A DNA stretch of 30,007 nt from a virus: positions 1-30,007 of the IMG/VR virus record IMGVR_UViG_3300039106_000669; one strand, 5' to 3'. A model generated the notes under the pieces. That model saw only the letters and a program-made list of their open reading frames with translations, ran no database searches and was not told the origin of the DNA. The position numbers were made by a program, and so were the translations under genes. Position 1 is the first letter of the stretch. Each line of letters starts with the position of its first letter. Positions 3,479 through 23,200 of the stretch are shown here, piece after piece.

Positions 3479-4206
3479 TTTAACTCCGGCACATAAACAT
3501 CAAACAACAGCAGATTGCGCTCAATGCCCGGCTCTACTGGTTCAACACCATGCCAGCTTTTATCATTCTTAAAGAATGCAAACATACTGTTGGGCAAGTA
3601 AGGCATGGTAGCGGTTCTGTTGAAATCTTTGTACATGTAGTGTGGGCCGCCTGGACAGGTCATGCCTTCACGCTTGGGTGCATACATGCTGGTACCCAAG
3701 TCAGGACGAGTATTGTCTGGAGCAAGATAAAACAACACAGTGATAACTTTACTCTTGCTGTCAGTATGTGGGCCCAACTCGTATCCAGTGTAGTCACGCA
3801 CATACAGACTTTCAAATTTAGTGTTAAAACGAGTGCCCAATCTGCGTTCTACAAAAGTAGAAAACTTGTTTAAGAAAACGTCTCTAAGCTCTGGTGTAAT
3901 CAGTTCAGTAGCGGCTTGCATCCAGGGCTCTCGAATTTCTGCGGGCAATGGGTCAATAGTTTTTTCATTGACTGGCAATACGATACGATTGTCTTCGGGA
4001 TTGTTGTTGGGATCACCGCTTACTACAATCACTCGCCCCATGCTGGTCAGAGTGGCTAGATGTTCTTTTTGTGGCTGATTAGCCACCAGCTGATTGTAGA
4101 AATCCTGTGGCAGTGCATCCTTGATATAGATGTAGGGATAGGGTTCCTCAATCAGCTCAGTGTCTTGAATTTTTTTAGCTAGATAATCAACGGCGGCGGA
4201 ACACAT
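3475..4206 (-). CDS. 2OG-Fe(II) dioxygenase, prolyl-4-hydroxylase-like
   Basis: A 243-aa 2-oxoglutarate/Fe(II)-dependent oxygenase. The facial triad is visible as H147-x-D149 (GPHTDSKSK) and H219 (SWHGVEP), with R230 (ERNLLLF) placed to bind 2-oxoglutarate. The jelly-roll core around them (VITVLFYLAPDN, PNSMFAFFKND) fits 2OG oxygenases of the prolyl hydroxylase type. The reaction would be hydroxylation of an unknown substrate, coupled to decarboxylation of 2-oxoglutarate. Its start overlaps the end of the methyltransferase fusion by 20 bases and its stop overlaps the glycosyltransferase start, so the three genes behave as one translational unit. A hydroxylase directly coupled to a glycosyltransferase suggests hydroxylate-then-glycosylate chemistry, but that is inference. 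Confidence 0.85.
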   Translation of the reverse strand: MCSAAVDYLAKKIQDTELIEEPYPYIYIKDALPQDFYNQLVANQPQKEHLATLTSMGRVIVVSGDPNNNPEDNRIVLPVNEKTIDPLPAEIREPWMQAATELITPELRDVFLNKFSTFVERRLGTRFNTKFESLYVRDYTGYELGPHTDSKSKVITVLFYLAPDNTRPDLGTSMYAPKREGMTCPGGPHYMYKDFNRTATMPYLPNSMFAFFKNDKSWHGVEPVEPGIERNLLLFDVYVPELK

Positions 4207-6316
4207 ACTCTGCTACTCCTTTAAATGCGCCAGCTTTGCGTTCTGCTTCCTGGACTTGTTGTTTGTCATATGTGAACCCTAGACGTTCTAGAGTTGCCAC
4301 CATGTTCATATGCTCGGACAAGTTCTGATTGGTTTCAATCAGCAGGCTCTGCACATTAGGCAATATTAAATCGCCTCCTTGTATAATCAGATGTTCAATA
4401 CCGTCCACATCCAGTTTGATGTGATGCGGTGCTGGCACACCCAGTTCTAGAATGTCGTTCAGCGTGATTGTATATGCGCCCTGCTTGTATGCAGTCTTGG
4501 CTGGATTTAGATTGTGATCTGTTTCCTGCCCCACTGTATGGCAACTGCCGCCAGCTATAAACTGGCTCAGGTTCAATTTACTAAATCCACGAGTGTTGCT
4601 CATGGCCAATGGGTATGCTGTCACATATTTGTCCACATTGTTCAGCTTGATGTTCTGATTGAGGATGGCATAGTTCTGACTCTCAGGCTCAAATGCAAAC
4701 ACCCGCACACGCTTGGTTACTGCGGCAAAAATGGTATACATGCCCACGTTGGCACCAATGTCAATCATGACCTCACCTGGTTTCATGCTGTTTAACCACT
4801 CGATAGTAATGGGCTCTTTGGTAAAGATAGTTTTAACACGGGCTGATGTCACATCGTTGGGAGTGGCATACAGGATGTTAACACCGCGATGTTTGACTGC
4901 TTGTACTTCTTGACGTTCAGGCATTGGCGCAGTAGTTTGTGCCGCTGGTTCAGGCGCAGGCGCTGGTTTGGCTTTTTTAACAGTACGTGGCGCCACCACA
5001 ATATGAAGTTCAGCACCGCTAACAATGGTTTTGGCCACGTTAAAATACTTGCTGAGAAATTTAGTCCACCACTCTTCACCTTCCTGTATCAGGTGAGCGT
5101 TGCGACCGTCTGGCAGGAACTTTTGTGCTGGCCCAGTGTGTACTACAAAGTACCCGATCTCTTTAGTAACTCGTGCTAGATCAAACAACACGTTGGGCAA
5201 CAGGTCGGGTTCAATATGTTCCAGTACATCTGTACATACAACTAGGTCTGCTGGGCGAGCGGCGTCATCCTTGCCTGGTACTGCTGGGTCGTATTCCCAT
5301 ATGGGATATGGCATCTTCTTGGCTAAAGTGCCCTTACCACAGCCATAATCCAGCACAGAAGTAGTGTTTATGCTCTTGGCTAGTTTAACCACCATGTCCA
5401 CACGCTTTTCACCGCTAGTACCGTAAGAAAGGTTTTCTTCATGCAACTTGCGATTCATCTCAGCATATTCTTTGCTGATCACTGGCTCGGACTTGTAGGC
5501 AATTTTCTTGACGTCTCGATCTTTATATGCTTCTTCCAGCTTGGTCTTGGCCATGTGCTGTACTAGACCGTCACCATACAGTGTCACAGTCAGGTCATGT
5601 ATCTCATGCACTTCGTGGAAAAACTGACGAGCATATTCAATCATGGCGTCAGTGGCACGGAATGTTCTGCCGTTAAATGGTACCTGACGGAATGTTTTGG
5701 GTGTCTTGGGGTGTTTGGTGGCGTGTGTGGTACCGTCTTCTAGTACGCTACAGTCCATACCAAAAATGTGTTGGTTCTTGAAACCCAGGAAACGGGCCAC
5801 CACCATGGCTCTCAGTCCGACGTTGCTACCACCGGTGAGAATCCATTCACCACGTGGGTAGTGATTGGGAATGTCGTTCTTGTTGGTGTTGCTGCCATAT
5901 ACGTGCCACAGTTTTACATTGTGGCCCTCCAGCAGATCAAACACTTTGGGATGGCAACAACTGGCCATCATGTATTCCACATCCTTGTGTGGGGTGCCAA
6001 TTAGATCAGCTTTGTGTGCTTGCGGATCAGCGTCCACGTGCCAGGTGGGAATGATACCACGATCAATTAAAAACTGGTGGGCGCCAGCACAGCTGATGAT
6101 ATACTTGAACTTTTTAATTTCTTCCCAGGTGTCATTTAAACTGGGACCAAAGGCCACAATAGCAACAGGTTCGTCAGTGTCTTCGCCAGGTTGAATACGC
6201 CCAGGGATACGTGCAATGGCTGCTCGCATCTGGGCGTCTCGTAGTTCAGGGCTGATAACGTAATGAACTTTGGGTTTTTCGTTTTCGATGTCGAATACTT
6301 TTTCGGTTTTGGCCAT
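4187..6316 (-). CDS. Three-domain fusion: DUF115/MAF-like - class I methyltransferase - FkbM methyltransferase
   Basis: A 709-aa multidomain enzyme. Residues about 48-255 resemble the DUF115/MAF/MptE-like family (GPSL at 57-60, GGSNVGLRA at 162-170, FGMDCS at 185-190), known in flagellin glycosylation and pterin phosphorylation. Residues about 300-443 form a class I SAM methyltransferase (VLDYGCGKG at 321-329, DVLEH at 363-367). A low-complexity Ala/Pro/Lys linker spans about 446-475. Residues about 478-709 are an FkbM methyltransferase (MIDIGANVGMYT at 517-528, FEPE at 542-545, KLDVDG at 634-639). All motifs look intact and no frameshift is seen. FkbM enzymes commonly O-methylate sugars or polyketides, and together with DUF115 this points to glycan tailoring. 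It begins 58 bases after the halogenase stop, behind a possible promoter, and overlaps the next 2OG gene by 20 bases. The actual substrate is unknown. Confidence 0.85.
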   Translation of the reverse strand: MAKTEKVFDIENEKPKVHYVISPELRDAQMRAAIARIPGRIQPGEDTDEPVAIVAFGPSLNDTWEEIKKFKYIISCAGAHQFLIDRGIIPTWHVDADPQAHKADLIGTPHKDVEYMMASCCHPKVFDLLEGHNVKLWHVYGSNTNKNDIPNHYPRGEWILTGGSNVGLRAMVVARFLGFKNQHIFGMDCSVLEDGTTHATKHPKTPKTFRQVPFNGRTFRATDAMIEYARQFFHEVHEIHDLTVTLYGDGLVQHMAKTKLEEAYKDRDVKKIAYKSEPVISKEYAEMNRKLHEENLSYGTSGEKRVDMVVKLAKSINTTSVLDYGCGKGTLAKKMPYPIWEYDPAVPGKDDAARPADLVVCTDVLEHIEPDLLPNVLFDLARVTKEIGYFVVHTGPAQKFLPDGRNAHLIQEGEEWWTKFLSKYFNVAKTIVSGAELHIVVAPRTVKKAKPAPAPEPAAQTTAPMPERQEVQAVKHRGVNILYATPNDVTSARVKTIFTKEPITIEWLNSMKPGEVMIDIGANVGMYTIFAAVTKRVRVFAFEPESQNYAILNQNIKLNNVDKYVTAYPLAMSNTRGFSKLNLSQFIAGGSCHTVGQETDHNLNPAKTAYKQGAYTITLNDILELGVPAPHHIKLDVDGIEHLIIQGGDLILPNVQSLLIETNQNLSEHMNMVATLERLGFTYDKQQVQEAERKAGAFKGVAEYVFRRR

Positions 6317-6340
6317 ATTTGTAGATACTCTAATAGGGTA

Positions 6341-6370
6341 ATTATAACAGAGTATTTACCACACAATCAA
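6341..6370 (-). promoter_or_regulatory. Possible sigma70-type promoter with flanking inverted repeat
   Basis: In the 58-base gap between the halogenase stop and the fusion methyltransferase start, the - strand carries TTGATT (6370-6365), an 18-base spacer and TATAAT (6346-6341). The -10 box sits between two perfect 7-base inverted arms (ATACTCT at 6355-6349 and AGAGTAT at 6331-6325 on the - strand). These could form a hairpin in RNA or an operator in DNA. A GTAAATA late-promoter-like heptamer (6359-6353) overlaps. This is the only good -35/-10 pair noticed in the enzyme block. Confidence 0.4.
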
Positions 6371-6374
6371 GCAT

Positions 6375-7985
6375 CTAATAAGTTTTATGAATATGTTCCT
6401 TCAAAAACTCATAATGAGTGGGCATCTGGTCAATACGGGCCATTACCTCAGCACGATGTGTTAGCCAGGTCTGATATGTTGCTTCTTCATATCCTGGTTG
6501 CTCAAAGAATTGGTTGTCAAGAAAGTCTTTATGGATAGCATCCATGGGATTGTATCCCATTCCGGCTGCAATATAAATGATACCACTCATCGATGCAGAA
6601 TAGCTACGTGTTCTGTGACTGCGTTCTGCAAGTTCTATATAGGAGTTGTACATGCTGGGTAACATGTCGCGCATTTCTGGACTGTATGTGATCCCGCCTG
6701 ACACTTCTTTCCAGTATGGTGTATCATTTCGCATACTTAACGCATAGTGTTGACTGATAAAATTCTTGAATCCCAAAATCTGTTCTTGGAATGCATGGTT
6801 AAACAGGTCCACGTCAAATTGGGTAACGACACCGTTTCGCATGGTCAATGCTGCCACCAATTTGGTAATACCTTCGTGAGTCAACATCAGACCAGTGGAT
6901 TCCAATGGTTCAATAAATCCATTTGACAGCCCAATACCCACTACGTTCTTTTCCCAGGCCCATTTGTGGACTCCATGCTTGATTTTAATATGGCGAAACT
7001 CAGCTGCATCAGCACGTTCAGCATCAGGGAATATCATTCGGTTGCTTTTTAAATGTTTTCTAAAATGTGCTTCTGCTTGCTCTTCAGTTGCATGTTTGCT
7101 ACTGTAAACGTAACCAGTGCCAATCCTACTCCACAGTGGAATGTTCCAGACCCAGCCAGCTTCAATTGCAGTACAACTGGTGTAGTTTTCCATTTCCTTG
7201 GGTTTGTCAATGTAGGGAATAACTGTGGCAACAGCTCGGTCATTTAATAGTGTGTCGTGGAAGGATATAAAAGGCACTCCCATTTTTTGTTCCAGCAACA
7301 ACGACCTAAAGCCAGTACAATCAATAAACAAATCTGCTGTCAGAGCGCCGTTACTTTCTGTTAATATTTCCTTGATGCTGCCATCTTCGTTTAGTGTAGC
7401 ATCAGTAACAGTGTCAATAACGTGTGTCATGCCAGACGGTAAGCACAGATGGTCACGCAAGTATATGCCAAACAATGTGGCATCCATATGGTATGCAGTG
7501 TCAGTTTTGAAATTGAAATTTCGCAGTTCATGAGACTCGTTCTTGGTCATTTTATTTGCATCCGTCATCAAAATTGAATCATGATGGAATTCTGCAAAAT
7601 TACTGGGATCAAGAGTGGGATGTTTGGTTTTATACAGGAACCAATCCATCACTTGCCTTGGCTTGTCAGTTAAATCCATATAGCCAAATGGGTAATGAAA
7701 TTTGTGCGGTTGCTCTTTAGGGTTTTCTCTAAAGTCAATAAACTTGATGCTGGTTTTGTAAGTTGCATTACAATGCGGCATCCAGTCCTGATCTTTAAGA
7801 TCCAACAGGTGCATGAACTGATTGATATGCCCAATAGTACTTTCACCAACCCCGATGATTGGAATACTTGGACTTTCAACAAGAGTTAATTTGATATGTG
7901 GTAGGCGTTTTGAGATTGCAGCCGCGGTCATCCAACCTGAGCTACCGCCTCCGACAATTAGTATTGATTTAATATTGTGGTACAT
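6375..7985 (-). CDS. Flavin-dependent tryptophan-halogenase family protein
   Basis: A 536-aa FAD-dependent halogenase, full length for the family. The FAD-binding motif GGGSSG lies at residues 12-17 and is followed by the family's IIGVGEST segment. NATYK carries K77, in the place of the catalytic lysine of PrnA-type enzymes (K79). The signature WVWNIP is at 278-283, and FIEPLESTG (357-365) contains E362, equivalent to the second catalytic residue. IDCTGF (221-226) is also typical. All catalytic elements are present, so it is expected to halogenate using FADH2, oxygen and halide. No flavin reductase is seen in the window. Substrate is unknown; a phage enzyme of this family, VirX1 from a cyanophage, halogenates varied small aromatics in vitro. 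Its start overlaps the preceding 2OG gene by 17 bases, suggesting joint expression. No convincing ribosome site was seen. Confidence 0.93.
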   Translation of the reverse strand: MYHNIKSILIVGGGSSGWMTAAAISKRLPHIKLTLVESPSIPIIGVGESTIGHINQFMHLLDLKDQDWMPHCNATYKTSIKFIDFRENPKEQPHKFHYPFGYMDLTDKPRQVMDWFLYKTKHPTLDPSNFAEFHHDSILMTDANKMTKNESHELRNFNFKTDTAYHMDATLFGIYLRDHLCLPSGMTHVIDTVTDATLNEDGSIKEILTESNGALTADLFIDCTGFRSLLLEQKMGVPFISFHDTLLNDRAVATVIPYIDKPKEMENYTSCTAIEAGWVWNIPLWSRIGTGYVYSSKHATEEQAEAHFRKHLKSNRMIFPDAERADAAEFRHIKIKHGVHKWAWEKNVVGIGLSNGFIEPLESTGLMLTHEGITKLVAALTMRNGVVTQFDVDLFNHAFQEQILGFKNFISQHYALSMRNDTPYWKEVSGGITYSPEMRDMLPSMYNSYIELAERSHRTRSYSASMSGIIYIAAGMGYNPMDAIHKDFLDNQFFEQPGYEEATYQTWLTHRAEVMARIDQMPTHYEFLKEHIHKTY

Positions 7986-8568
7986 AGTTAATAGTGATTA
8001 CAAGTCTACGGTCATGATGCTTGGGTTTGGTACTTGAATGGAACGACAATCCGTCAAATACACATACTCGATTTTTTACAGGCGCACATCTGGATATCAC
8101 ATTAAAATCAGTTTGTTCAGCATAATCCACAAGACGCTGGTTGTCAATTTGAGTGCCCACATCAGCTAATTTTTTATCATATACAATGGTATCGCCATCA
8201 CTGTCAGATACATAGTAACATGCAGTGATGTGTGGTGATAAGAAATCCACATGTGGCGCATTACAACTGTAATTGTCCTGATTGGCTGGTGTGAGAAACC
8301 CCACTCGAATTCGTAACAGTTTATCAATTGGCCTGTCGACTGCGTCAGCAATATGATATACTACTGGTTTAATAAAAGGATACCAGTTACTGGGTGTTGC
8401 GTTTTCGTCATAAGCCACATGTGCAAGCCCGCCATTTGTGCCGTAATTTTTAAAGGTGACATCATTCACGTAAAACCAGGGGAAGTTCCATTGTAGCAAA
8501 TCAAACTCCAATTGATTTGCATAACTAGGCGTCAGTAAATTATCAATTATTTTTGGCTCTAGCATCAT
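7969..8568 (-). CDS. 2OG-Fe(II) oxygenase
   Basis: A 199-aa 2-oxoglutarate-dependent oxygenase. Fe(II) ligands H106-x-D108 (APHVDFLSPH) and H177 (LSFHSSTKP) are present, with R187 or R188 as the 2-oxoglutarate ligand and the final strands RLVITINY closing the jelly roll. Residue spacing and the FDGLSFHS segment differ from the 243-aa oxygenase at 3475-4206, so this is not a recent duplicate. The double ATG at the start overlaps the end of the U32-like gene by 26 bases, and its stop overlaps the halogenase start. It sits between a candidate oxygen-independent hydroxylase family member and a halogenase, so a shared aromatic or peptide substrate is conceivable but not shown. Substrate unknown. 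Confidence 0.85.
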   Translation of the reverse strand: MMLEPKIIDNLLTPSYANQLEFDLLQWNFPWFYVNDVTFKNYGTNGGLAHVAYDENATPSNWYPFIKPVVYHIADAVDRPIDKLLRIRVGFLTPANQDNYSCNAPHVDFLSPHITACYYVSDSDGDTIVYDKKLADVGTQIDNQRLVDYAEQTDFNVISRCAPVKNRVCVFDGLSFHSSTKPKHHDRRLVITINYVPQY

Positions 8569-9805
8569 GTAACACCGTTGAATTCATTCGCATTTGCAAA
8601 GCACTGTCAATATCATCCATGCCAAATGTTCTTTCACATTCATGACAGTCCCAACACTGGCTGCGACAGTTTAGCAATAGTTTTTCCAACTTTTTGCCCT
8701 GGTCAGAAGACCAAACACCAGCGTGTGGTTTGTACGTGATGTGCCAGTCATTGGCAACCTGTCTAGTGTCAACCCATCCAGGAACCCAGTCATGTATTGG
8801 CCCAAGATTGTTATCATATATTTCGTGAAAATCGTTAGCATACACAGTCTGCTCAACAGTGCTATGTGGTTGCGTAAATTTACCAGTGCCACCGTAAAAC
8901 CAAGCAGCCTTTAGAAAGGGCAAATCTTTGGGGTCAGAGGCTGGCTGTGTCAATCGACCCGAGTACTTGAACACATCTACTAGATCAGCAAACTGTTTAA
9001 ATATTGCAGATGTTGAAGCTACCACGTTGATACCAGATCTGGGACTTAGTGCAAACTCAGGCACACTGCGCCAGGCATTACAACTGAGGTCAGCGGGTCC
9101 TGAAAAATATTCTGTGCTGACTACTTCGCCCACACTGTCATGTTCTTTCTTAAACGGACAATGGTAGATACACGCTTCAGCAATTAGTAAAATAGTAATC
9201 ACTTTCTTTTGTGGGTTTTTACTATTAAGATAATCCTGAGCACGTTTGATACGTTTGAGTTCTTTAAGATTCCTGTTGAGACTGCGATCCAAATTAATAC
9301 TGTTATACCCCAGATATGCCATGTCAATAAATTGCTGTGCATCTGCCACAATCTGATTGACTGTGCTTTTCCAACGCATGTCAGGGCATCTTTGTTGGAG
9401 CACACCCATACGCATCAAATGCTCCGAGCTCATGGTGCAACTACGCAAACCACGATCATAGTAGCTGCCAATCCACTCTACAAATTGTTCACGTATTTGG
9501 TCATGCCAAATTACTTCATGTGGTACTTCAATAGTATTAAAAGTCAGGCTGATTTCAACACCAGTTTCTTCCTGTAGCTTGAACAACCAGTCCACCTGAA
9601 TGTCGCTGGCTTCCACTCCCATGGGATTACCGCATCGCTTTTGTTTGCCTTCCCACTCGTAATAGAAAAACTTACCAAAATATATGTCATGAATATTGGC
9701 CAGATACCGTGGGTCGGCGTTTTTCATTAAATGGTAAAAGGTGTCGGCGTGCTCTCCGCGGAACCTATCAAAGTGAGCTATGGAGAATCTTTTGTTGAAA
9801 TTCAT
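8543..9805 (-). CDS. Peptidase U32-like TIM-barrel protein with Cys clusters
   Basis: A 420-aa protein that I read as a divergent member of the U32 (UbiU/UbiV/TrhP/RlhA-type) superfamily. Support comes from NSINLDRSLNRNLKEL (168-183), like the U32 barrel strand and helix that follow; EACIYHCPFKKEH (210-222), in the place of the U32 cysteine segment; SCNAWRS (241-247); and LVDVFKYSGRL (275-285), which parallels the U32 VDSFKIEGRM motif. Cysteines C212, C216 and C242, plus a C-terminal cluster C380, C384, C387 and C390, could bind an iron-sulfur cluster. Known relatives hydroxylate ubiquinone precursors or RNA rather than act as proteases, so a hydroxylation-type role is more likely than proteolysis. 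The start follows the 138-aa gene by 14 bases. The call is by motif memory; fold prediction would decide it. Confidence 0.6.
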   Translation of the reverse strand: MNFNKRFSIAHFDRFRGEHADTFYHLMKNADPRYLANIHDIYFGKFFYYEWEGKQKRCGNPMGVEASDIQVDWLFKLQEETGVEISLTFNTIEVPHEVIWHDQIREQFVEWIGSYYDRGLRSCTMSSEHLMRMGVLQQRCPDMRWKSTVNQIVADAQQFIDMAYLGYNSINLDRSLNRNLKELKRIKRAQDYLNSKNPQKKVITILLIAEACIYHCPFKKEHDSVGEVVSTEYFSGPADLSCNAWRSVPEFALSPRSGINVVASTSAIFKQFADLVDVFKYSGRLTQPASDPKDLPFLKAAWFYGGTGKFTQPHSTVEQTVYANDFHEIYDNNLGPIHDWVPGWVDTRQVANDWHITYKPHAGVWSSDQGKKLEKLLLNCRSQCWDCHECERTFGMDDIDSALQMRMNSTVLHDARAKNN

Positions 9806-9819
9806 AATAAATTGAAAAA

Positions 9820-10236
9820 TTATTGCGGGCTTGAGTTTGCATTAAGCCTTGTCAAATGCGCCTCATTCCAGGCAATCACCGCTTCAATGTCATCTTTTGG
9901 AATCTCTTGCTTGACGTTGCTGATATGAGTTACCCAGGGCCCTGTATTACTTATTGTACCAGTAGCTTGTATTTCTTTATATAACATGTCCAACTGGTCA
10001 CCAATTGACCCATATCCGATACCACGTGCCACTCGATAGGCGTTTTCGATAAAATCCTGTCGAGTGGTCATATCATTCTTTGTTACTGTACCGTCCTCAT
10101 TGTATTGATCAGCAGTAGTAGTACCGTCAGGAACATCTACCCAGCTAAATGCTGGATGTACTTCAAATTCTTCACCAGGGTTTCGAATTTCACAAATTCT
10201 ACCTGGTTCTCGTGAGTGTAATAGTGCTTTTAACAT
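9820..10236 (-). CDS. Phage protein of unknown function with SIGDQLDMLY motif
   Basis: A 138-aa soluble protein with no signal peptide or membrane segment. Residues about 71-84 (ARGIGYGSIGDQLD) followed by MLYKEI resemble a short motif (YPSIGDQLDALY-type) common in small proteins encoded next to tail-fibre genes in marine phages. I know of no established function for it. The N-terminal half is Asp/Thr/Pro-rich, and the C-terminal part (IEAVIAWNEAHLTRLN) is probably helical. It lies between the last glycine-rich adhesin (15-base gap) and the U32-like gene (14-base gap), so it could be a fibre-assembly factor or minor virion protein. AGGAA (10247-10243) serves as the ribosome site for the ATG at 10236. 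Confidence 0.7.
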   Translation of the reverse strand: MLKALLHSREPGRICEIRNPGEEFEVHPAFSWVDVPDGTTTADQYNEDGTVTKNDMTTRQDFIENAYRVARGIGYGSIGDQLDMLYKEIQATGTISNTGPWVTHISNVKQEIPKDDIEAVIAWNEAHLTRLNANSSPQ

Positions 10237-10251: not shown

Positions 10252-11613
10252 TTATTTATAAGAGTACACGATAACCAATCCGCTTTCCCCTGGTGCGCCA
10301 GTGTTATCATATCCACCGCCGTCGGTCTGATTGCCTGGTCCACCAGAACCTGGGGCGCCATTACCAGCCACAATAATTTTCTTGGGCAGAGAGTTTGCAC
10401 CAGGCGACAAGTTAGTGTGGTCTCGTCGATGTGCCGCACCTCCACCAAAATATCCCCAACCACCACGCCCGCCAGGCCAGTGCCCACCTGAGTTGGTATG
10501 ACCGCTGCCAGCACCACCAGTGAGGTTCACTTGCCCGCCAGAGCCAGCGCCACCGTGTCCTCCCGAATGGTTAGAATAGGTATTGGCACCCCCGCCACCC
10601 GTTGCAGAGCAGTAAGAGCCAAAACTACTCGTGCCCCCGCCACCAGCCGCCGCATAATAACCCACTGCTGTTCCAGCCGCCCCAATAGTGACAGAGACTG
10701 ATGGCACACCAGTGACTGAGAAAAATCCTTCAGCAAAGCCGCCAGCACCACCCGATTCGCAATACCCGGCTCCACCACCGCCACCGCCAATCACTTTTGC
10801 ATGTACGATACTTGCACCTGGGTTATACCAGGTGCCTGAAGAAGCAAAGCTGTCCACTTTTATCAACTGTCCAAGATTCCTAGGTTGTGCGGCCATCTTG
10901 GTACCATCACTAAAAGTAACACCCTGGGTTTGCCCACCAACTGCCAACAAGTGATCAATACTGGGCTCAGATCCATTAACCAAATCAATTCTTGGCCAAT
11001 AAAATTCTATACGAGTGGTAGTGTCGGTGCAATAGTAGTGATACACTCGACTGCTGCCAGTGGTTGTGCCCGACTGCCACTTGCAATCATTTGGGATATT
11101 ACCAGCGTTGTTTCCAAGTTTTCCACCATTTCTGGTATAGTATCCTGAATCAGGATGTATTGTTGTGCCATTATAGTTAACTGGATAACAATGCCCCACA
11201 AACAAGTACCAGACGTTTTGAGTCAGGGAACCTGTGCCACGATAATCCCAGTATGGGTTTGAGTTAGCTGCGCCGTCACTTAAATGAGTAACAGCACCAG
11301 TGCTGGTCTGCAATCCAAAATAAAAGGTACCGCCACTTGTTGAGCTGGTGCGTTTGACCCAGACACTGAAACGATACAACTTGGTATTATCAATGCTTAT
11401 TTGACTGGTGTTCCAACCACCCGATGCATCATTGCCGCCAGTGGAGGTACATTGCCACACCATGGAAGTATTACCCCATGGATCTGTACCAAGATATCTG
11501 TTTTGTTCGTTTGCATCGCCGTTCGCGCTGAAAACACCCACGCCACCAGTACCCGCAGTCCATGTGGTGGGATCTAATAAGTTTGCGTCTGTTGAACCTA
11601 GTGTGATTGCCAT
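10252..11613 (-). CDS. Adhesin-like fibre tip protein, jelly-roll-like N-domain plus glycine-rich C-domain
   Basis: A 453-aa probable receptor-binding protein. Residues about 1-225 are rich in aromatic and polar residues (FSVWVKRTSS, WYLFVGHCYP, RIEFYWPRID) and look like a carbohydrate-binding jelly roll; the family is not identified. GVTFSDGTKM (231-240) is a short linker motif that recurs as GIIFSD in the 218-aa paralogue. From about residue 249 to the end comes a glycine-rich domain shared with the next two genes (AGYCESGGAGG at 282-292, FGSYCSATGGGG, GGHGGAGSGGQVNL) ending in a hydrophobic strand (LVIVYSYK). Glycine-rich tips of this general kind form polyglycine-II lattices in the gp38 adhesins of T-even phages such as S16. 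It starts 4 bases after the preceding stop, with no clear ribosome site. Confidence 0.75.
   Translation of the reverse strand: MAITLGSTDANLLDPTTWTAGTGGVGVFSANGDANEQNRYLGTDPWGNTSMVWQCTSTGGNDASGGWNTSQISIDNTKLYRFSVWVKRTSSTSGGTFYFGLQTSTGAVTHLSDGAANSNPYWDYRGTGSLTQNVWYLFVGHCYPVNYNGTTIHPDSGYYTRNGGKLGNNAGNIPNDCKWQSGTTTGSSRVYHYYCTDTTTRIEFYWPRIDLVNGSEPSIDHLLAVGGQTQGVTFSDGTKMAAQPRNLGQLIKVDSFASSGTWYNPGASIVHAKVIGGGGGGAGYCESGGAGGFAEGFFSVTGVPSVSVTIGAAGTAVGYYAAAGGGGTSSFGSYCSATGGGGANTYSNHSGGHGGAGSGGQVNLTGGAGSGHTNSGGHWPGGRGGWGYFGGGAAHRRDHTNLSPGANSLPKKIIVAGNGAPGSGGPGNQTDGGGYDNTGAPGESGLVIVYSYK
10253..10260 (-). promoter_or_regulatory. T4-type late promoter octamer TATAAATA (candidate)
   Basis: An exact TATAAATA, the T4 late -10 element, lies 17 bases before the 138-aa gene and could drive the leftward enzyme block. 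Caution: it also encodes the Tyr-Lys-stop end of the preceding adhesin. The expected transcript start (about 10247) falls on the ribosome site, leaving almost no leader. The match may therefore be fortuitous. Confidence 0.4.
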
Positions 11614-11617
11614 AATA

Positions 11618-12982
11618 TTATTTAAATGCGTAAACTACTACTGCGCCAGCAGGACCAGCTACGCCAGAACTACCGATTTCACCAATTCCGCCGCTGGCCC
11701 CACTACCAGGTGCAGGGCTAAAATTATCAGCGTTGTTGCCTCGAGTTTTTCCTCCTGGCCCACCAAAAAACCCGCCGCCGCCGGCTGCGGCTTGGCTATG
11801 TGAGCCGTGGTTGGCGTGGCCAGTGCCGCTACCACCCTGCAGATTTACTTGTCCACCAGATCCTGAGCCGCCGTGACCCCCAGCATGTGCTACAGTAGAG
11901 TTGGCGCCACCACCGCCAGTGGCTGACACCAATGCACCAAAACTTGTGGTACCACCAGTACCAGCAACTGCATAATAACCCACTGCCGAGCCACCGCCAC
12001 CAATGGTCACTGTATATGAAGCACCAGGGGTAACTGTGAATACACCTTCAGAAAAACCGCCTGCGCCACCTGATTCGCAATAGCCAGCTGAGCCGCCTCC
12101 ACCGCCCATTGCTTGTACTAAAATTTTTGTACAGTTGTGCGGCACATAGTATGTAAAGGTGCCCGCAGTTGTGTATGACATCACACTAACTGGTGTTCCA
12201 TAGTCTGAGGGCGTGGCTGACTGAACTAATGCTGTTGGGGTTGCACCCAATCTTGAAGCCACAGAGTTATAATTTTGAATTACTTCATTAGCTGACAAAT
12301 ATCTGTTGTAAATCTGAACGACGGCTATGTCTCCCCAATATTGGCTGGCATTGGATGGATCAGTCTGTACGGCATTGTTGTATGCACCGATACTACAAAT
12401 GCCGTGTTTGAATCTAGCATTGGCGCTGGTAATAGAACCCACCACTGTATCTGGTGTAGAATTTATACCTAGCGAATAATATGGACTGGTGTTGTTACTC
12501 CAGCGCCAGGTCATCATGACCCAATTGGATGTTCCGTAATTGGGTAAACTGGTCTGACTATAACCAGACACGTTAAATCCAGAACCATTACCACTGTCAT
12601 ACATACCAATTCTATTAGCACCCGATTCAATAATGACCTGGTGATCACCGCCAGTGCTCAGTCCACGAAACAGTGTTCTCCATTCTGCTGTGGAACTTTT
12701 AACTCTGGTCCAGACTATAGCAGTTAAGTCGCAGTTGTAAAACGCAAGGTCAGCGTCAGTTTTCTTGGCACACCCATAGCTGCCGTTAAAATCCATGTAA
12801 CCACCACTGCCACTGTTGTATGCAGTTGACAATACTGAAAAGTGATTGCCGCGACCGCTGAGATCGTACCAATTGGTACCAGTGCCGGGATAACTGGCTG
12901 GATTACCAGCGTCCAGATGCAATACTAACCCGTCAGACACGGGCGGTAATAAAATTCCTGATGAGTTAAGAGTCGTTGCCAT
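11618..12982 (-). CDS. Adhesin-like protein, LamG-type domain plus glycine-rich C-domain
   Basis: A 454-aa probable host-recognition protein. Residues about 15-245 read as a LamG/concanavalin-like jelly roll: GLVLHLDAGNPASY, WYDLSGRGNHF, MDFNGSYGC, then AVVQIYNRYLSANEVIQNYN at the end, which is the usual closing signature of LamG-like phage domains. The C-terminal roughly 185 residues are the glycine-rich domain shared with both neighbours (SAGYCESGGAGG, GGHGGSGSGGQVNL, ending GAVVVYAFK). Different N-domains on a common C-domain suggest domain shuffling among tip proteins. It follows the 218-aa paralogue by 8 bases. The ribosome site is weak. The likely role is binding a host glycan; the ligand is unknown. 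Confidence 0.8.
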   Translation of the reverse strand: MATTLNSSGILLPPVSDGLVLHLDAGNPASYPGTGTNWYDLSGRGNHFSVLSTAYNSGSGGYMDFNGSYGCAKKTDADLAFYNCDLTAIVWTRVKSSTAEWRTLFRGLSTGGDHQVIIESGANRIGMYDSGNGSGFNVSGYSQTSLPNYGTSNWVMMTWRWSNNTSPYYSLGINSTPDTVVGSITSANARFKHGICSIGAYNNAVQTDPSNASQYWGDIAVVQIYNRYLSANEVIQNYNSVASRLGATPTALVQSATPSDYGTPVSVMSYTTAGTFTYYVPHNCTKILVQAMGGGGGSAGYCESGGAGGFSEGVFTVTPGASYTVTIGGGGSAVGYYAVAGTGGTTSFGALVSATGGGGANSTVAHAGGHGGSGSGGQVNLQGGSGTGHANHGSHSQAAAGGGGFFGGPGGKTRGNNADNFSPAPGSGASGGIGEIGSSGVAGPAGAVVVYAFK

Positions 12983-12990
12983 ATATGTTT

Positions 12991-13647
12991 TTAAGTGTAT
13001 GCATAAACTACCACTATGCCATTCGATGCGGCAGTACCAGTTGTACTTAACCCACTAGCTGGGGCACCGCTGGCACCTGATCCTGGTGCGCCTGCACCAA
13101 CTTTGTCACCATGGTAATGGCGCACGCCATGTGAACCACCAAAGTACCCAGCACCGCCCTTGCCAATACCACCACTTCCCATACTGTTACCATGCCCAGT
13201 ACCAGAACCGCCATTTAACGATACTATACCAGCACCAGCACCTGGTGCTCCACCAGTATGACTTAAATTTTGGTTAGCACCATATCCACCTGTTGCAGAA
13301 CAATAGGATCCAAAACTACTTGTGCCACCATTACCAGCTGCCGCATAATATCCAACTCCAGCGCCACCTGCACCCACAGTGACGGTCACCGTGGAGTTGG
13401 GCGCCAATTCAATCAGCTGTTCTGCGTATCCACCAGCACCACCCGATTCGCAATAACCTGCTGATCCACCGCCAGCACCTTGTACTCGGACAAACACTCG
13501 ATTGGCAGTAGCTGGTTGTGTAAAAGTTCCTGAGGATGTGAAAGTGGTTACAGAGACCAGTTGGCCAGTATCAAGGCCGGTGCTGTATTTTTCTAAATTG
13601 GAATTGTCGGAAAATATAATGCCATTAGGGCCCATTGTAATAGCCAT
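12991..13647 (-). CDS. Short glycine-rich adhesin-like protein
   Basis: A 218-aa protein consisting almost wholly of the glycine-rich domain of the two following genes, preceded by a roughly 27-residue N-terminal piece (GPNGIIFSDNSN). Shared marks are SAGYCESGGAGGYAEQ, FGSYCSATGG and a final strand GIVVVYAYT. It lacks the large N-terminal carbohydrate-binding-like domain of its paralogues, so it may be the minimal form of the tip, a chaperone-like capping subunit, or an adhesin in its own right. It starts one base after the S74 gene stop, with GGAGAA upstream of the ATG, so it is tightly coupled to that gene. Confidence 0.75.
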   Translation of the reverse strand: MAITMGPNGIIFSDNSNLEKYSTGLDTGQLVSVTTFTSSGTFTQPATANRVFVRVQGAGGGSAGYCESGGAGGYAEQLIELAPNSTVTVTVGAGGAGVGYYAAAGNGGTSSFGSYCSATGGYGANQNLSHTGGAPGAGAGIVSLNGGSGTGHGNSMGSGGIGKGGAGYFGGSHGVRHYHGDKVGAGAPGSGASGAPASGLSTTGTAASNGIVVVYAYT

Positions 13648-13648
13648 A

Positions 13649-14299
13649 CTATTCTCCTTTACTACTGTTGATAAAGTCCTTAATGCCGTTTACTTCAACA
13701 CGGAGTTCTTTGATAGCCTCTGCCAGTAACGGCACCAATAGTTCATATTGCACGGTTAAATAATTTTCTCCAGACAGACTGGAACCATTGGGCCCAGCGT
13801 CAAATGGTGCGGGCTTGACTGCTTGTGGCAGTGCTCGTTGAACATCTTGTGCAAAGTGGCCCACACGCACTTCATAATTGTTGTATCCAAATTGTTCAGC
13901 CAACTGATTTTGTGTGTACAAGTACGCAGTCAGCATGTCAACACGGTCTAAAGCATTGTCAATGGTACCAACGACTGTTTTAAGACGTTGATCAGAATAG
14001 TATGCAGTAATGGCATTGGTTGCACGAATTTCACCAGTTGTACCAGATGCGGCTGTACCAATACCTAGCGAAGTTGTTTGGAATGTGCTACCAGCAACCA
14101 ATGCGCTGGGGAATGTACCAGCGCCAATGTCGGCAGCGGTTAATGTTACCGAACCAGTACGCCCAGCAACTGAGCTGACTGGGCTAGCAGTACTAACTGC
14201 ACCAGTCTTGTTCCAGGTGCTTGTAGTGGTACTGTATGTGTAACTGATGTTGTTAATTGTTGCTGTTTGCCCGTTTGTTGGGTTTGATGGAAAAGCCAT
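13649..14299 (-). CDS. Small tail protein with S74 (endosialidase-type) chaperone domain
   Basis: A 216-aa protein. The N-terminus (FPSNPTNGQ, ISYTYSTTTSTWNKTG) is a small beta module frequent in phage fibres, then GRTGSVTLTAADIGAG (46-61), another recurrent fibre motif. Residues about 100-216 form an S74 intramolecular chaperone domain: SDQRLK (102-107) contains the candidate self-cleavage Ser, followed by GHFAQDV (147-153) and YELLVPLLAEAIKEL (185-199), the usual C-terminal helix. S74 domains drive trimerisation of beta-helical fibres and then cut themselves off. Here the domain is on a short separate protein rather than at the end of the giant fibre. Its ATG shares one base with the stop of the giant fibre gene (TAATG at 14301-14297), with GGGAG upstream inside that gene. 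Confidence 0.88.
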   Translation of the reverse strand: MAFPSNPTNGQTATINNISYTYSTTTSTWNKTGAVSTASPVSSVAGRTGSVTLTAADIGAGTFPSALVAGSTFQTTSLGIGTAASGTTGEIRATNAITAYYSDQRLKTVVGTIDNALDRVDMLTAYLYTQNQLAEQFGYNNYEVRVGHFAQDVQRALPQAVKPAPFDAGPNGSSLSGENYLTVQYELLVPLLAEAIKELRVEVNGIKDFINSSKGE

Positions 14300-17200
14300 T
14301 ATAATCTCCCTACCACGATTTCAATTGAGCCCACTTGATCACTATCATAATCAACTAATGCTTTACCAATTACTGTTCCAATTTGTGGGGTGCCTGCATA
14401 GGTTGCAACACCAGGAATGCTACTAGTTACTAACATATCACCTTTTCTAATCTTACCCACCACATTACAGGGCACACGCCCAGTTAGTGCCACTGGCAAT
14501 CCAGTTGCATCTGAGTTCATCAGGTACGCTGGATTGGTAGATATTACACCAGCGACACGATTGTCTGTCAATTGGTTAGACGTGGTAATCTCAAACTGTC
14601 CACCAAAAATCACAACAGTGCCTGGTGGGTACGGACTGTCAGATGCATAAATTTCTGCCAAGTCGGCATATTTTGCTGAACTTGCGATACCCAAGAAGTT
14701 GGTTGCTGTTAGGTTACCACCTGAGTCTCGTAATGCCAAAGTGTTAGCAGTGGCACTAGTGCTAGCGTTGGTTAAACCAGTACTCACGTCCACCCAACTG
14801 TAACCAGTGCCGTCATAAATGTACTTGTACATGGTATCAGTGGTACTGTTATACCACTCATCACCCTGTTGCGGACTACTTGGTGCTGATGTACCAGTGT
14901 AATTGGTAATCAGTGCCTTAGATCCCCTAGTACTAGTGCCACTTACTGTGACATTGACGAATGCGGCAGTACCAGTAAATGTGGGACCAGCTTTGGGTGC
15001 ATAGGTTGCTGATACTGAATTACTCAATGCTGAAATTAAATTACTCAAGGCATTGTCAGCTGATGTTCGGTTGGCAATTTCTAATGATAGTGCCTGACTT
15101 ACTACTGACACTGCATTACTGACAGTGTTAATACCTGCAATGCGAGCAGCCGTTTCTACTGACAGTGCCTGGCTGACTACTGAAATAGCATTGCTTAATG
15201 AGTCAAATTTGGCCAGCACACTAACGCCGTTGATTGTTGCTTCAGTAGTTGCTACAAGGTTGCTGGCTTTAAATGTACCAAACGTAGCGGAACTAAAATC
15301 TCCACCTGCACTTTCTGCGCCCGTCACATACCAGTGCAATTCTTTAGTTGAGTTGTCTAATACCAACGCGGCGTTCTGATCTGCGCCACTGCCGTAGTAG
15401 TGGAATCGAACACCCACGTCTTTACCATCATCCACAGCCCAGGGCTGTGCAATGTTAGCCACGTTGGGCGAGTGCAATTCAATTAAGTTGTCTGAAGTGG
15501 CGTAGTTGTTACTGCCGATGACCACAGTATTACCAGACACGACCAAGTTACCAGAAATAGTAACGTTGCCACTCAATACTGCACCAACTTTAGGTGCATA
15601 GGTTGCTGATACTGAGTTGCTTAATGCGTTAACTGCTGAAATACGATCGTTAATTTCAACGCTCAGTCTGTTACTGACACCACTTACTAGGTTACTCAAC
15701 ACACTCAGTGTATTACTGACTGTATCGATACGAACGCTCAGTGCGTTATCAGCTGATGTTCGGTTGGCAATTTCTAATGATAGTGCATTGCTGACAACTG
15801 ATACTGCGTTACTGACAGTATCAATACGAACGCTTAGTGCGTTATCAGCTGATGTTCGGTTGGCAATTTCTAATGATAGTGCATTGCTGATAACTGATAC
15901 TGCGTTACTGACAGTATCAATACGAACGCTTAGTGCATTATCTGCACTCACACGGTTGGATATTTCAAGTGATACCGCATTACTGACTGTGTCAATACGC
16001 AAACTTAGCGCAGTATCTGCACTGATTCGGTTTGCTGTTTCAAGTGAAATTGCATTGCTTAATGCGTTGTCTGCACTTGTGCGGTTGGCAATTTCAAGTG
16101 AAATTGCATTGCTTAATGCGTTGTCAGCACTAATACGGTTGACCGTTTCTACCGACACTGCATTACTAACAGTGTTGACATCTGCCGCAGTAGCGCCAGA
16201 CACAAACGCCACACCATTGGCGTAGAACAAGTTGTTGGTGTATACTGCGGTGGCAAACACGTTGCCTGCTACACCAATACCACCGCCCACAATAATATCA
16301 CCAGTACTGGTGCTAGTAGCCGGTGTATTTCCATATGTTGTTAAATTTGCAAAAGTCCATGATACTGGGTAGTTGGATATATCTAACCAGAGATTACTAG
16401 TACCATCATTAATTCGATTGTATAGTGTGTTAGTGTTAATCTGGAACCATTGATCACCAGGACTTGACACATTAGGCGCAGTGTTGGATGCTGTGAATGT
16501 AAGACCGCTGCCACCACCACCTGTGCCCACTGCTGTACCGTTGGCAAAGTAGAATGCGCTGGCATAAATGTTGCCAGTGGAACCTATACCACCAGTCACT
16601 GTCAGTGTGCCAGTAGTAGTACTGGAACTGATGGTGTTGCCAGTAATTGAGGTATTACCAGAAATTACAGTATTGCCAGTAAATGTGGGGCTGGCCTTGG
16701 GTGCATAGGTAACAGACACTGCATTACTCAATGCATTGACTGCTGAGATACGATTGGCTATTTCAAGTGATACTGCATTGCTGACGGCGTCAATACGAAC
16801 GCTCAGTGCGTTATCTGCACTTGTGCGGTTGGCTATTTCAACTGATACAGCATTGCTGACAGTGTCAACACGCAAACTTAGTGCGTTATCTGCACTTGTG
16901 CGGTTGGCAATTTCTAAACTAACTGCATTACTGACGGTATCAATTGCGGCAAGTACGTTGGTACCTGCCACCGTTAACGTGCCACCAACACCAAAGTTAT
17001 TGGCTGTGTACCAGCCCAAATTGGCATGGATGTATCGCAAATAAGTGACTGGGCCTGTACCCACATCAATACCAGCACCATCAATGGTAGCACTAGTGCT
17101 AGCATTATTAGCAATTACAATGTTTTTGTCATTTATAGTTACAGTAGTACTATTGATAGTTTGAACGTTGCCATTGACTGTTAAGTTACCCGACAGTACG

Positions 17201-20200
17201 GTATCACCTGTAACGTTCAAGGTACCAATATTGGTAGTACCAGTTAGTGTAGCATTGGCCTTGGGTGCATAGGTAACAGACACTGCGTGGCTTAATGCGT
17301 TAACTGCTGAAATACGATTGGCTATTTCAAGTGATAGAGCCTGACTGATTACGCTGACTGCTTGACTGACGTTGTCAATGCGAACGCTCAGTGCATTATC
17401 AGCACTGGTTCTATTGGCAATTTCTGCACTCAGTGCATTACTAATTAATGATAATCCCTGGCTGATACCGTCAATACGCACACTGACCAGACTGATCAGA
17501 TTGCTCAGTGCATTATCAGCACTGACGCGGCTGGCTGTTTCTACACTTAGTGCTTGGCTTACGACAGAAACTGCCTGGCTGACTGCATCTATGCGAACGC
17601 TCAGTGCATTATCAGCACTTGTTCTATTTGCAATCTCAACTGACAAGGCTTGGCTAACCACGTTCACTGCTGAAATTCGATCGGCTATTTCTACACTCAG
17701 TCTATTACTGACGCCACTTACCAGATTGCTCAATGCACTCAGCGTATTACTGACTGTATCGATCCTCGCACTCAATGCATTGTCAGCACTAACACGGTTG
17801 ACTGTTTCTACACTCAGCGCCTGGCTGACAACTGATACTGCATTGCTGACTGTATCAATGCGAACGCTCAGTGCGTTATCTGCACTAATACGATTGACTG
17901 TTGCAACTGATACCGCATGGCTAACAACTGAAATGGCATTGCTGATAGTGTCAAACTTAGCTAGGACACTAACCCCGTTAATAGTTGCATCACCAGTTAA
18001 TACCAGATTGCCTGTTTTAAATGTACCATAGGTACCAGTAAATACGTTTCCGCCCTCGACACCTGACCCATACCATTCCAGGTAACTGGTGTCATTTGCA
18101 AATCCCAGGAAGGCATTGTTATCGGCACCTGACTTGTAATAATGGAATCTGACACCGATGTCTTTTCCATCATCAACTGCCCAGGGCTGTGCAATGTTAG
18201 CCACATTGGGTGAATGTAATTCAATAATGTTATCAGTAGTAGCATAGTTGTTGCTACCAATGATTGTGGTATTTCCGCTGACCACCAGGTTGGCGGCAAT
18301 GGTAACATTGCCACTAAACGTCGCACCGCTAAGGCGAGCATAGTTAACTGAAACGTTGTTGCTTAATGCGCTGATTAAATTGCTTAGTGCGCTGTCTGCG
18401 CTGATACGATTTGCCGTCTCAACTGATAGGGCTTGGCTAACAATGGATACTGCATTGCTGACTGTGTTAACTGCCGCAATGCGAGCAGCCGTTTCTACTG
18501 ACAGTGCCTGGCTAACAACCGACACTGCGTTACTTACAGTGTCAATACGAGCGTTGGCTGCTGATATGGCGTTACTGGTGACTGATACTGCACCACTAAT
18601 GCTGTCAATACGCAAACTTAGCGCAGTATCTGCACTGATTCGGTTTGCTGTTTCAACACTCAATGCCTGACTTACAATACTGACTGCATTACTAATAGTA
18701 TCGATGCGAACGCTCAGTGCGTTGTCAGCACTAATACGATTGACTGTTGCAACTGATACCGCATGGCTTACAATACTAACCGCATTACTTACAGTATCAA
18801 TACGAACACTCAGTGCATTATCAGCACTGATGCCGTTGGCAATTTCCACAGACAGCGCATTGCTGACCACATTGACTGCTGAAATTCGATTGGCTATTTC
18901 TACGCTTACCGCATTACTGACAGTGTTGACATCAGCAGCCGTAGCACCAGAAACAAATGCCACGCCGTTGGCATAGAATAGGTTGTCTGTGTATACTGCA
19001 TTGGCTCTTAGGTTACCAGATACACCAACACCGCCTGCTACTGTCAATGCACCAGTTGTCAGGTTACCGCTTGCAGTAGTATCAGTGATTGCCAAGTTCG
19101 ATGTTACTGTGACTTGTGGTGTTGTGGTTAGATCCAACCAGAACGAGCTGGTGCCATCATTGGCACGAACATACAGCGTGTTAGTGTCTGTGTTGAACCA
19201 CTCATCACCGCTGCTTGGGCTTGTGGGCGCAGTATTAGATGCAGTATATTTGAATGAGCTGCTAGTATAAGGCGTGCCGTTGGCCCAATAGTAACTGTCT
19301 GTGTAAACTGCGTTGGCTTGTAAGTTACCAGTTACACCAACGCCGCCTGTCACTAACAATGATCCAGTTGTTTTACTGGTGCTTGCTACGTTACTTGTGA
19401 TACTGACATTACCAGTAAATGTAGCACCAGACTTGGCAGCATAAGTTACTGATACTGAATTGCTTAGTGCTGAAATTAAATTACTCAGGGCGTTATCAGC
19501 ACTAGTACGGTTGGCGATCTCGACGCTCAACGCATTACTGACCACATTGACTGCGGAAATACGATTGGCAGTTTCTAGCGATAGTGCTTGACTGACAACA
19601 CTGACCGCATTACTGACTGTATCAATGCGAACACTCAATGCGTTGTCAGCACTTGTTCTATTTGCAATCTCAACTGACAAGGCTTGGCTAACCACGTTAA
19701 CCGCACTAATACGGTCCGCAATCTCAACACTCAATCGGTTGCTTACACCACTTACCAGATTGCTCAAAGCACTAAGTGAGTTGCTGACTGTGTCAATACG
19801 AACGCTTAATGCGTTGTCTGCTGATGTTCTATTTGCGATCTCAACTGATACAGCATTGCTGACCGTATCAATCGCGGCAAGCACATTGGTACCAGAAACT
19901 GTTAAAGTGCCACCTACACCAAAGTTATTGGCTGTGTACCAACCCAAGTTGGCATGGATGTATCGCAAGTAAGTGACTGGGCCCTGTCCCACATCGATAC
20001 CAGCACCATCAACAGTTGCACTAGTACTCGCGTTGTTTCCAATTACGATGTTCTTATCGTTAATTGTTACTATAGTACTGTTGATAGTCTCAACACTACC
20101 GTTAACTGTTAGGTTACCAGACAGAACTGTATCGCCAGTAACGTTCAGGGTACCAATGTTTGTTGTGCCAGTGAATGTGGCATTGGATTTGGGTGCGTAT

Positions 20201-23200
20201 GTTACTGATACACTGTTACTCAGTGCATTAACAGCTGAAACTCGATCAGCAATCTCCACGCTCAGGCGGTTGCTAACACCACTTACTAGATTGCTCAATA
20301 CACTCAGTGTATTACTAACAGTATCAATGCGAACGCTTAATGCATTGCCTGCACTGATGCGGTTGGCAATTTCAAGTGACAGCGCATTGCTGACTACAGA
20401 TACTGCATTACTGACTGTATCGATTCGAACACTCAGGGCGTTATCAGCACTTGTTCTATTTGAGATCTCAACTGATACTGCATTGCTGACTGTATCAATT
20501 GCGGCAAGCACATTGGCACTGCCCACAGTCAATGTACCAGTAACTGTCAATGGTCCAGTTACTGTTAGTGGGTTAGTACCAGAACGGCCAATATAATTGG
20601 TGGCGTTTGCGTTACCAAATACAATGTAACCCTGTGCGCCATCTTGTACACCAGTTACTCGGAATGTGTTTGCTGTGTTGATGTCGCCAATCCAGACGTC
20701 ATCACCCACTCGATAATTGGTACCGTTGCCGTTGTTTGTGGCAACGATTGTGTCAACAAGCAAGTTACCAGTAAAGACGGGCGCACTTAATTTAGCATAG
20801 TTTGCAGATACATAATTGCTTAGTGCAGAGTCAGCACTAATACGATTGGCTATCTCCACGCTCAATGCGTTGCTGACGGCAGCGGCGGCACCGCTGGCCA
20901 CATTGACTGCTGAAATTCGGTTGGCTATCTCTAGGCTCAATGCGTTGCTGACGGCAGAAATGGCATTGCTTAACGCATTATCAGCACTAATACGGTTGAC
21001 AGTTTCAATTGATAATGCGTGACTAACTACGCTAACTGCACTAATACGGTTGGCCGTCTCTAACGACAGGGCCTGACTTACAACTGATACCGCATTGCTG
21101 ACCGTATCAATCGCCGCGGCAACGTTTGCACCATTTACTGTTAATGTAGTAAATGCACCAGTGCTGGCTGTGGCGTTACCAATTGGGGTATTCTGAATGC
21201 CACCCTGTGCTGTAAATGCACCTTGGTATGTCAATGCACCAGTGCCACTGCGGCCCAGCGTCTGAGCGTTGGCATTGCCAAAAACAATATATCCGTTTGC
21301 ATTATTAAATTGGCCCATCACACGCATGGTATCAGCAACATTTATGTCACCGATCCAGGCATCGTCACCTACTTTAAAGTTTGTGCCGTTGCTGTTGTTG
21401 GTAGATGCAATAATATCACCAGTCAGTGTACCAGTGAATGTGGGATTGGATTTGGGTGCGTATGTGGCTGATACGTAATTGCTTAGTGCAGAGTCAGCAC
21501 TAATACGATTGGCAGTTTCAACTGAGATAGCATTACTAACAGAATCTATATTTACACTAAAAGGAGCGCCGTTGGCCCAATAGTAATTAGATGCCAGTAT
21601 GTTACCTAAAACGTTAACGTTACCGTTGGATTGTGTAATTGAAAGTGGCACAGCAGCCGCACCAGCGGCGTTCTGATAGAAGAAGCGCAGGGCATTGGTG
21701 TTGTCTACATCAATGTTCCAGGTGCTGTTGGCTTGCCCAGTAATACCCGAAATGTTTGGCCAAGCCAATACCAACTGGCCACCTTCAGATGTGGGCGAGG
21801 GTGCCGCAATAACCAAATTATTGTTAACTACTGCGGTAGTTTTGTTTACGTATGTGGCTGATACACTATTGCTTAGTGCATTGACTGCGCTGATGCGGTT
21901 GGCTATTTCAAGTGATACTGCCTGGCTGACTGTGTCAATACGAACACTCAGTGCATTGTCAGCACTTGTTCTGTTTACTATTTCAACAGATAGTGCTTGG
22001 CTGACAACTGACACGGCATTACTGACCACATTAACTGCTGAGATACGGTTAGCAGTCTCAACTGATAATGCTTGGCTGACAACTGATATGGAATTGCTTA
22101 ATGAATCTAGCTTTGCCAACACACTAACACCACTAATGGTGGCGTCACCAGTTAGGATCAGGTTACCAGTCTTAAATGTGCCGTAAGTACCGGTAAAGAC
22201 ATTACCACCTTCTGCACCTGAGCCATACCATTCTAGGTAACTGGTATCATTTGCAAATCCAAGAAATGCGTTGTTATCAGCACCTGATTTGTAATAATGG
22301 AATCTGACACCAATGTCTTTACCATCATCTACACTCCAAGGTTGTGCAATATTGGCAATGTTGGGCGTATGTAATTCAATAATATTATCAGTGGTGGCGT
22401 AATTGTTACTACCAATAATCGTAGTGTTGCCACTGACAACCAAATTGGCTGCAATAGTAACGTTACCACTGAATGTAGCACCACTTAGACGTGCGTAGTT
22501 GACAGAAATGTTATTGCTCAATGCACTAATCAGATTGCTTAGTGCATTATCAGCTGATGTTCGATTTGCTATCTCGACAGACAGTGCATTACTGACCACA
22601 TTGACAGCTGAAATACGGTTAGCAGTTTCTACACTCAATGCCTGACTGACGATTGAAACGGCATTACTGACTGTATCAATGCGAACGCTTAATGCGTTGT
22701 CTGCGGATACACGATTGACAGTTTCTACCGATAACGCCTGACTTACAATACTGACTGCATTGCTTGCGGTATCAATACGAACGCTCAGTGCATTATCAGC
22801 ACTGATGCGGTTGGATATTTCGTTACTTACTGCATTACTGACAGTGTCAATACGAACACTCAGTGCGTTATCAGCTGATGTTCTGTTTACTGTTTCTACC
22901 GATAACGCCTGACTTACAATACTGACTGCATTACTGACAGTGTCAATACGAACACTCAGTGCATTGTCAGCACTGGTTCTGTTGGTTATCTCGGCAGATA
23001 GTTGTTGGCTGGTTACTGATACATAATTGCTGATCGAATCAATACGCAAACTCAGTGCGTTGTCAGCAGATATGCGGTTTACAATTTCAATACTCAGTGT
23101 GTTACTGATAGCATCTGGACTAAATGCCACGCCGTTGGCATAATAGTAGTTGTCTGTATAGACTGCGTTGGCTCGCAAATTGCCAGCAATGCCAGCACCA

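Follow-up and report, generated by a model that had tools for sequence, protein, structure and literature searches.

Three consecutive genes of a tailed phage encode paralogous adhesins that probably act as a three-slot receptor-binding tip module, in which the chains most likely sit together in one tail tip. The DNA analyzed, referred to here as the window, is the 30,007 bp of IMG/VR virus record IMGVR_UViG_3300039106_000669. The virus is a large T4-related phage: a profile search of the window found a T4-type major capsid gene (gp23) at 28321 to 29523 (E 2e-101), and one contig of the near group of relatives (L054) is 354 kb long. The isolate relatives closest in the major capsid protein are the jumbo phages PA5oct, MIJ3, and Phosso, at approximately 66% identity, yet the order of the tail-tip genes is one common to cyanophages. 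On the minus strand of the window, the genes run from a giant repetitive fiber through a short S74-chaperone fiber subunit and proteins A, B, and C to D138. The genes are as follows, in that direction.

14299 to 23646, minus strand: giant repetitive fiber protein of 3115 aa, probable shaft; no Pfam match
13649 to 14299, minus strand: fiber subunit carrying an S74 intramolecular chaperone of endosialidase (PF13884), the gene immediately before the triplet
12991 to 13647, minus strand: adhesin slot 1, protein A, 218 aa; head MAITMGPNGIIFSDNS and a TNF-like/glycine-rich C-domain (about 12997 to 13554)
11618 to 12982, minus strand: adhesin slot 2, protein B, 454 aa; LamG/ConA-like N-domain (about 12260 to 12982) and glycine-rich C-domain (about 11624 to 12187)
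10252 to 11613, minus strand: adhesin slot 3, protein C, 453 aa; CBM4-like jelly-roll N-domain (residues 8 to 215, about 10969 to 11592), GVTFSDGT linker, and glycine-rich C-domain (about 10258 to 10857)
9820 to 10236, minus strand: D138, 138 aa, phrog_1787 family
8543 to 9805, minus strand: phrog_1458 protein, 420 aa, between D138 and the halogenase and kept in close relatives
7969 to 8568, minus strand: 2OG-Fe(II) oxygenase-like protein (weak match, under the cut-off), between D138 and the halogenase
6375 to 7985, minus strand: flavin-dependent halogenase, a relative of VirX1 (PDB 6qgm) at full length and a conserved neighbor of the adhesin genes

The 3115-aa protein, with repeat units of the type SNAVSVVSQALSVETANRISA, and its 801-aa neighbor (23699 to 26104) lie in a tandem-repeat region in which most repeats are 75 to 96 bp.

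The shared glycine-rich domain

The initial annotation described three tandem paralogs with a common C-domain, and both the open reading frames and the homology bear this out. The C-domains (residues 32 to 217 of A, 266 to 453 of B, and 253 to 452 of C) are pairwise 49 to 53% identical, match one another within the window at E 1e-39, and all carry PF21722 (Gly_rich_2), with 35.8, 40.1, and 30.2 bits for A, B, and C (E 1e-8, 5e-10, and 6e-7), against a gathering cut-off of 24.3 bits. The phrog_863 profile, that of cyanophage gp38, matches the three proteins at E 1e-43 to 6e-32; isolate homologs are annotated as gp38 or tail fiber assembly, and gp38-like genes stand beside D138 in the neighborhoods of Syn33, S-BM1, P-RSM6, and S-SZBM1. 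The likeness to cyanophage gp38 covers the sequence family and the gene order, together with a glycine-rich tip bearing variable loops.

An AlphaFold2 model of protein A, built on 40 sequences, predicts a C-domain that is well ordered rather than unstructured (pLDDT 88, pTM 0.82). The best match to this model among solved folds is the tail fiber gp24 of Pam3 (7ypx; Z 20.0, 181 residues, rmsd 2.6, 27% identity), against which a model of protein C gave Z 20.5. Next came the Bxb1 tail tip (Z 14.5), followed by ALK/LTK, whose TNF-like/glycine-rich domain gave about 9 to 10. S16 gp38 (6F45), which has a polyglycine-II sandwich fold, was absent among the fold matches listed, and its fold could still apply; a search of solved structures by sequence with the C-domain returned chance matches only. 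Pam3 gp24 is a trimer, with its chaperone at 3:3 stoichiometry, in which glycine-rich loops, variable at their distal tip, extend from the TNF-like domain (PMC9608196). The window proteins resemble this aquatic myophage fiber (7ypx, 7yfw) in the TNF-like sandwich that runs into glycine-rich loops, and in a separate small chaperone (gp25 there; here perhaps D138). Unlike gp24, which is one gene giving a trimer of identical chains, the window has three paralogous genes with insertable lectin domains. In addition, an N-terminal alpha-helical bundle drives trimerization of gp24, whereas the A model has no helix, and its head is modeled, with low confidence, as a short stretch rich in strands; the window proteins are therefore classed as sharing the gp24 fold and not as gp24 orthologs.

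Within the C-domain, variability peaks at residues 171 to 190 and 201 to 210 of A (2.1 to 2.4 bits per column), which belong to the glycine-rich part. The locus had been contrasted with S16-type gp38 on the ground that variation here was in the N-domains and there in the glycine-rich loops; that contrast fails, because the C-domain has a variable loop of its own inside the glycine-rich part. Because of this loop, and because 9 of 25 near triplets are bare in all three slots, the glycine-rich domain is itself presumably a receptor binder, and the lectin domains are additions to it. The gp38 of S16 and T2 is encoded by a single gene and sits at the tip of the gp37 trimer; the window differs in having three fixed slots, into which lectin domains are inserted N-terminally.

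The motif AGYCESGGAGG is present in A, B, and C, as had been reported, and its cysteine is found in 60 of 75 copies. A second cysteine (SYCSATGG) had also been called conserved, but the position is Cys in 22 of 55 readable near-group copies and V, L, I, M, F, or A in the others. A conserved disulfide between the two is ruled out by the variability of the second.

N-terminal domains, copy number, and slot identity

Protein A has a 31-aa head and no N-domain. The N-domain of protein B is LamG-like, scoring 24.5 bits with PF13385 (Laminin_G_3), below the cut-off of 27.6, and matching phrog_25721 at E 2e-30; LamG relatives in the same sequence cluster score 70 to 88 bits with Laminin_G_3. By model, the N-domain of protein C is a jelly roll with the CBM4 fold, matching CBM4-2 (2y64; Z 12.8, 150 residues, rmsd 2.6, 12% identity), and no CBM match was found for it at the sequence level. 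Both are putative lectins, and they are mutually unrelated in sequence, as first proposed (a LamG to jelly roll profile comparison gave a probability of 0.7%). In bare copies among the relatives, MAxTLG at the start is followed without a break by the motif G-[IV]-xFSDGT, whereas decorated copies have the extra domain between the two; the N-domains are therefore insertions at one point. The exception is protein B of the window, in which the FSDGT motif is not visible after the LamG domain.

Relatives were collected with protein A as query, which gave 27 loci, and with a D138 alignment, an anchor independent of copy number, from which the best 80 of 485 matches were taken. The alignment was used because a single-sequence D138 search gave one contig only. 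A tblastn search with protein A in phage records gave no match, probably because of low-complexity filtering. Copy number had been expected to vary among close relatives, but all 25 complete loci, the window included, have three copies, which rules it out as a source of diversity there. When each unique locus had to include 900 bp or more of sequence before its first copy, the count was three copies in 24 near, 13 far, and 8 cyanophage-like loci; a further 12 cyanophage-like loci have two copies and 9 have one. L072 is listed apart, its middle copy probably being truncated where the contig ends. All complete far loci thus have three copies, and one or two occur only in some cyanophage-like loci. 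Two loci with shorter upstream sequence (L088 and L092) have three as well. More than three copies were found in none of the 67 complete D138-linked loci (that count without L072, plus L007), a limit that rests on few independent lineages, the loci being related by descent.

Some single loci depart from this layout. In S-CREM1 (L032:6360-7166), in-frame stops break the first glycine-rich copy, of which the record annotates just a 122-aa piece, and the part downstream still reads as the domain. Syn9 gp39 (L035:6696-7965) contains a partial internal duplication of the glycine-rich domain in one gene, and at L070:6941-7330 the middle glycine-rich copy is separated from the last by a small open reading frame of its own, about 130 aa long.

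As judged from their sequences, the C-domains keep slot identity among relatives. In subgroup I of the C-domain tree, the clades follow position, with 14 rows for the first (97/93), 14 for the second (92/82), and 13 of 14 for the third (96/93); subgroup II has position clades of its own, with one permuted locus (L013). The slot-specific positions are few and mostly conservative. The triplets of the far group, the S-RIM44/Sf group, P-TIM40/L116, and L097 each cluster with themselves, and triplication or homogenization therefore took place separately in at least five lineages.

The N-domains differ among relatives on these orthologous C-domains, with the slot lineage kept; there is no fixed trio of N-domains, and architectures vary from slot to slot. 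The C-domains of L069 and L005 are 79 to 89% identical overall, and L069 has LamG where L005 has a jelly roll in slot 1 (C-domains 79% identical) and LamG where L005 is bare in slot 3. In the same way, slot 3 holds a jelly roll in L012 and is bare in L057 (C-domains 78% identical), and slot 1 holds LamG in L008 and is bare in L065 (84%). The window shares the order none-LamG-jelly roll with L004, L015, L016, and L078. Other architectures are jelly roll-none-none (L005), LamG-none-none (L008), none-none-jelly roll (L012), and LamG-none-LamG (L069). Near loci have no decorated slot in 9 cases, one in 9, two in 7, and three in 0, and at least 10 architecture changes map onto the D138 tree. The absence of fully decorated loci was considered as proof of a heterotrimer and rejected, as 0 of 25 is not significant with approximately 0.7 expected for independent slots. 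The LamG domain in slot 2 of the window is closest to that in slot 1 of L008 (65% identity); the attached C-domains are 50% identical, and same-slot C-domains 60 to 63%. The initial view of a conserved C-domain under variable N-domains stands for presence and absence but not for divergence, since in most pairs listed N-domains of the same type are 48 to 65% identical and C-domains 50 to 62%. The middle copy carries the same extra C-terminal domain (phrog_1325) in two distant lineages, L070 and P-TIM40. It is plausible that swaps of N-domains change receptor specificity.

Proposed assembly of the tip

The fixed trio, taken together with the known trimeric fold of the Pam3 relative, suggests that three chains cooperate in one tip, perhaps as a heterotrimer. 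By model, each chain ends in a TNF-like sandwich extending into a glycine-rich loop bundle like that of Pam3 gp24, with variable distal loops that probably touch the host. A short common head (MAxTLG ... GITFSDGT) would join each chain to the fiber. Comparison of the loci shows that LamG-like or CBM4-like domains are gained or lost between MAxTLG and GITFSDGT in any of the three slots, so that the phage could gain a sugar-binding arm at this single insertion point with the tip fold untouched. The three chains most likely share the tip, whether each occupies one position of a three-fold axis or the three act as adhesins that cooperate, and the single downstream D138 may help all three to fold. 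In nearly all loci read, D138 comes immediately after the glycine-rich copies, a position from which we infer that it is a probable Tfa-like tip chaperone; it gave no meaningful Pfam or PDB match, including none to a Tfa family by sequence.

The three genes might instead encode independent adhesins, each a homotrimer on a separate fiber or used in alternation, as a hedge across several receptors. Three separate homotrimers on three fibers would be expected to have the same genes, the closest solved relative, Pam3 gp24, forms its trimer from a single protein, the N-domains differ between copies, and phages with one or two copies exist. We regard this as a serious possibility while leaning somewhat against it, for it does not explain why all 25 close relatives, and several lineages that cluster apart, have three copies, why the slots keep their identity, or why one D138 serves for all.

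A true heterotrimer, with each chain once around the three-fold axis, is a specific form of the shared-tip reading that we put forward tentatively and with rather more doubt than belief. The trimeric fold of the Pam3 relative, the number three fixed in separate lineages, and the phrog_1325 domain on the middle copy of two distant lineages are consistent with it, as is the asymmetric decoration that never reaches all three slots (0 of 25, not significant). A precedent is found in phage Mysterious, in which gp35, gp36, and gp37 form a heterotrimer of beta-sandwich proteins in the tail tip region (PMC13252515); these too are three consecutive gene products, but that phage is of another type, and the heterotrimer shown there is only proposed here. 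Relatives with one or two copies mean that three chains are not demanded by the fold, and the paucity of slot-specific positions also counts against it.

Plain tandem duplication without co-assembly, in which the copies are a recombination reservoir for receptor specificity as the initial annotation held, is unlikely: N-domains do move between slots, copies from the same genome cluster in P-TIM40 and the two-copy cyanophages, and Syn9 and S-CREM1 have duplicated and interrupted copies, but the number should then vary and is constant in close relatives, and the near-group slot lineages are old and not homogenized.

The linked halogenase and the significance of the tip

The halogenase of the window matches VirX1 at full length (residues 5 to 533, E 8e-144) and contains the halogenase motifs GGGSSGW (GxGxxG type) and WVWNIP (WxWxIP). 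Of the 74 loci for which 5 kb or more of downstream sequence is available, 68 encode a VirX1-type homolog downstream of the adhesin and D138 genes; the six that lack it (L036, L040, L041, L042, L045, and L101) are all single-copy, and five come from one cyanophage group. VirX1 itself belongs to cyanophage Syn10 (L128), where it is CPUG_00131, a full-length match, in the same kind of gene neighborhood: two glycine-rich genes are followed by a D138 homolog, another halogenase, and VirX1. The position of VirX1 two genes past the tip genes in Syn10, together with the linkage in 68 of 74 loci, makes the adhesins candidate natural substrates, and this gene order suggests that the tail tip may be the substrate of VirX1-type halogenases. 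The halogenase belongs to a cluster of possible modifying enzymes at 2798 to 8568 of the window, along with two 2OG-Fe(II) oxygenase-like proteins, an MptE-like/FkbM methyltransferase protein, and a family 8 glycosyltransferase.

For the cyanophage halogenases, one proposal, a speculative one, is protection from antibiotics (PMC2984593), and another is that they decorate capsular polysaccharide, products related to it, or small molecules (PMC7824862). The part of the literature covered names no adhesin as a halogenase substrate. We consider it quite improbable that the tip is an obligate heterotrimer, a phage analog of C1q, with lectins on one or two arms and modified by the downstream halogenase and 2OG oxygenase; if true, this would supply the natural substrate of the viral halogenase. 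The linkage offers a concrete candidate substrate, one that can be checked, for enzymes about whose function in cyanophages there is debate. Most work on phage adhesins treats them as a single protein repeated by symmetry, and a tip of exactly three co-inherited paralogs that serve as sockets for lectins would, if true, show that host recognition can be built and varied in another manner.
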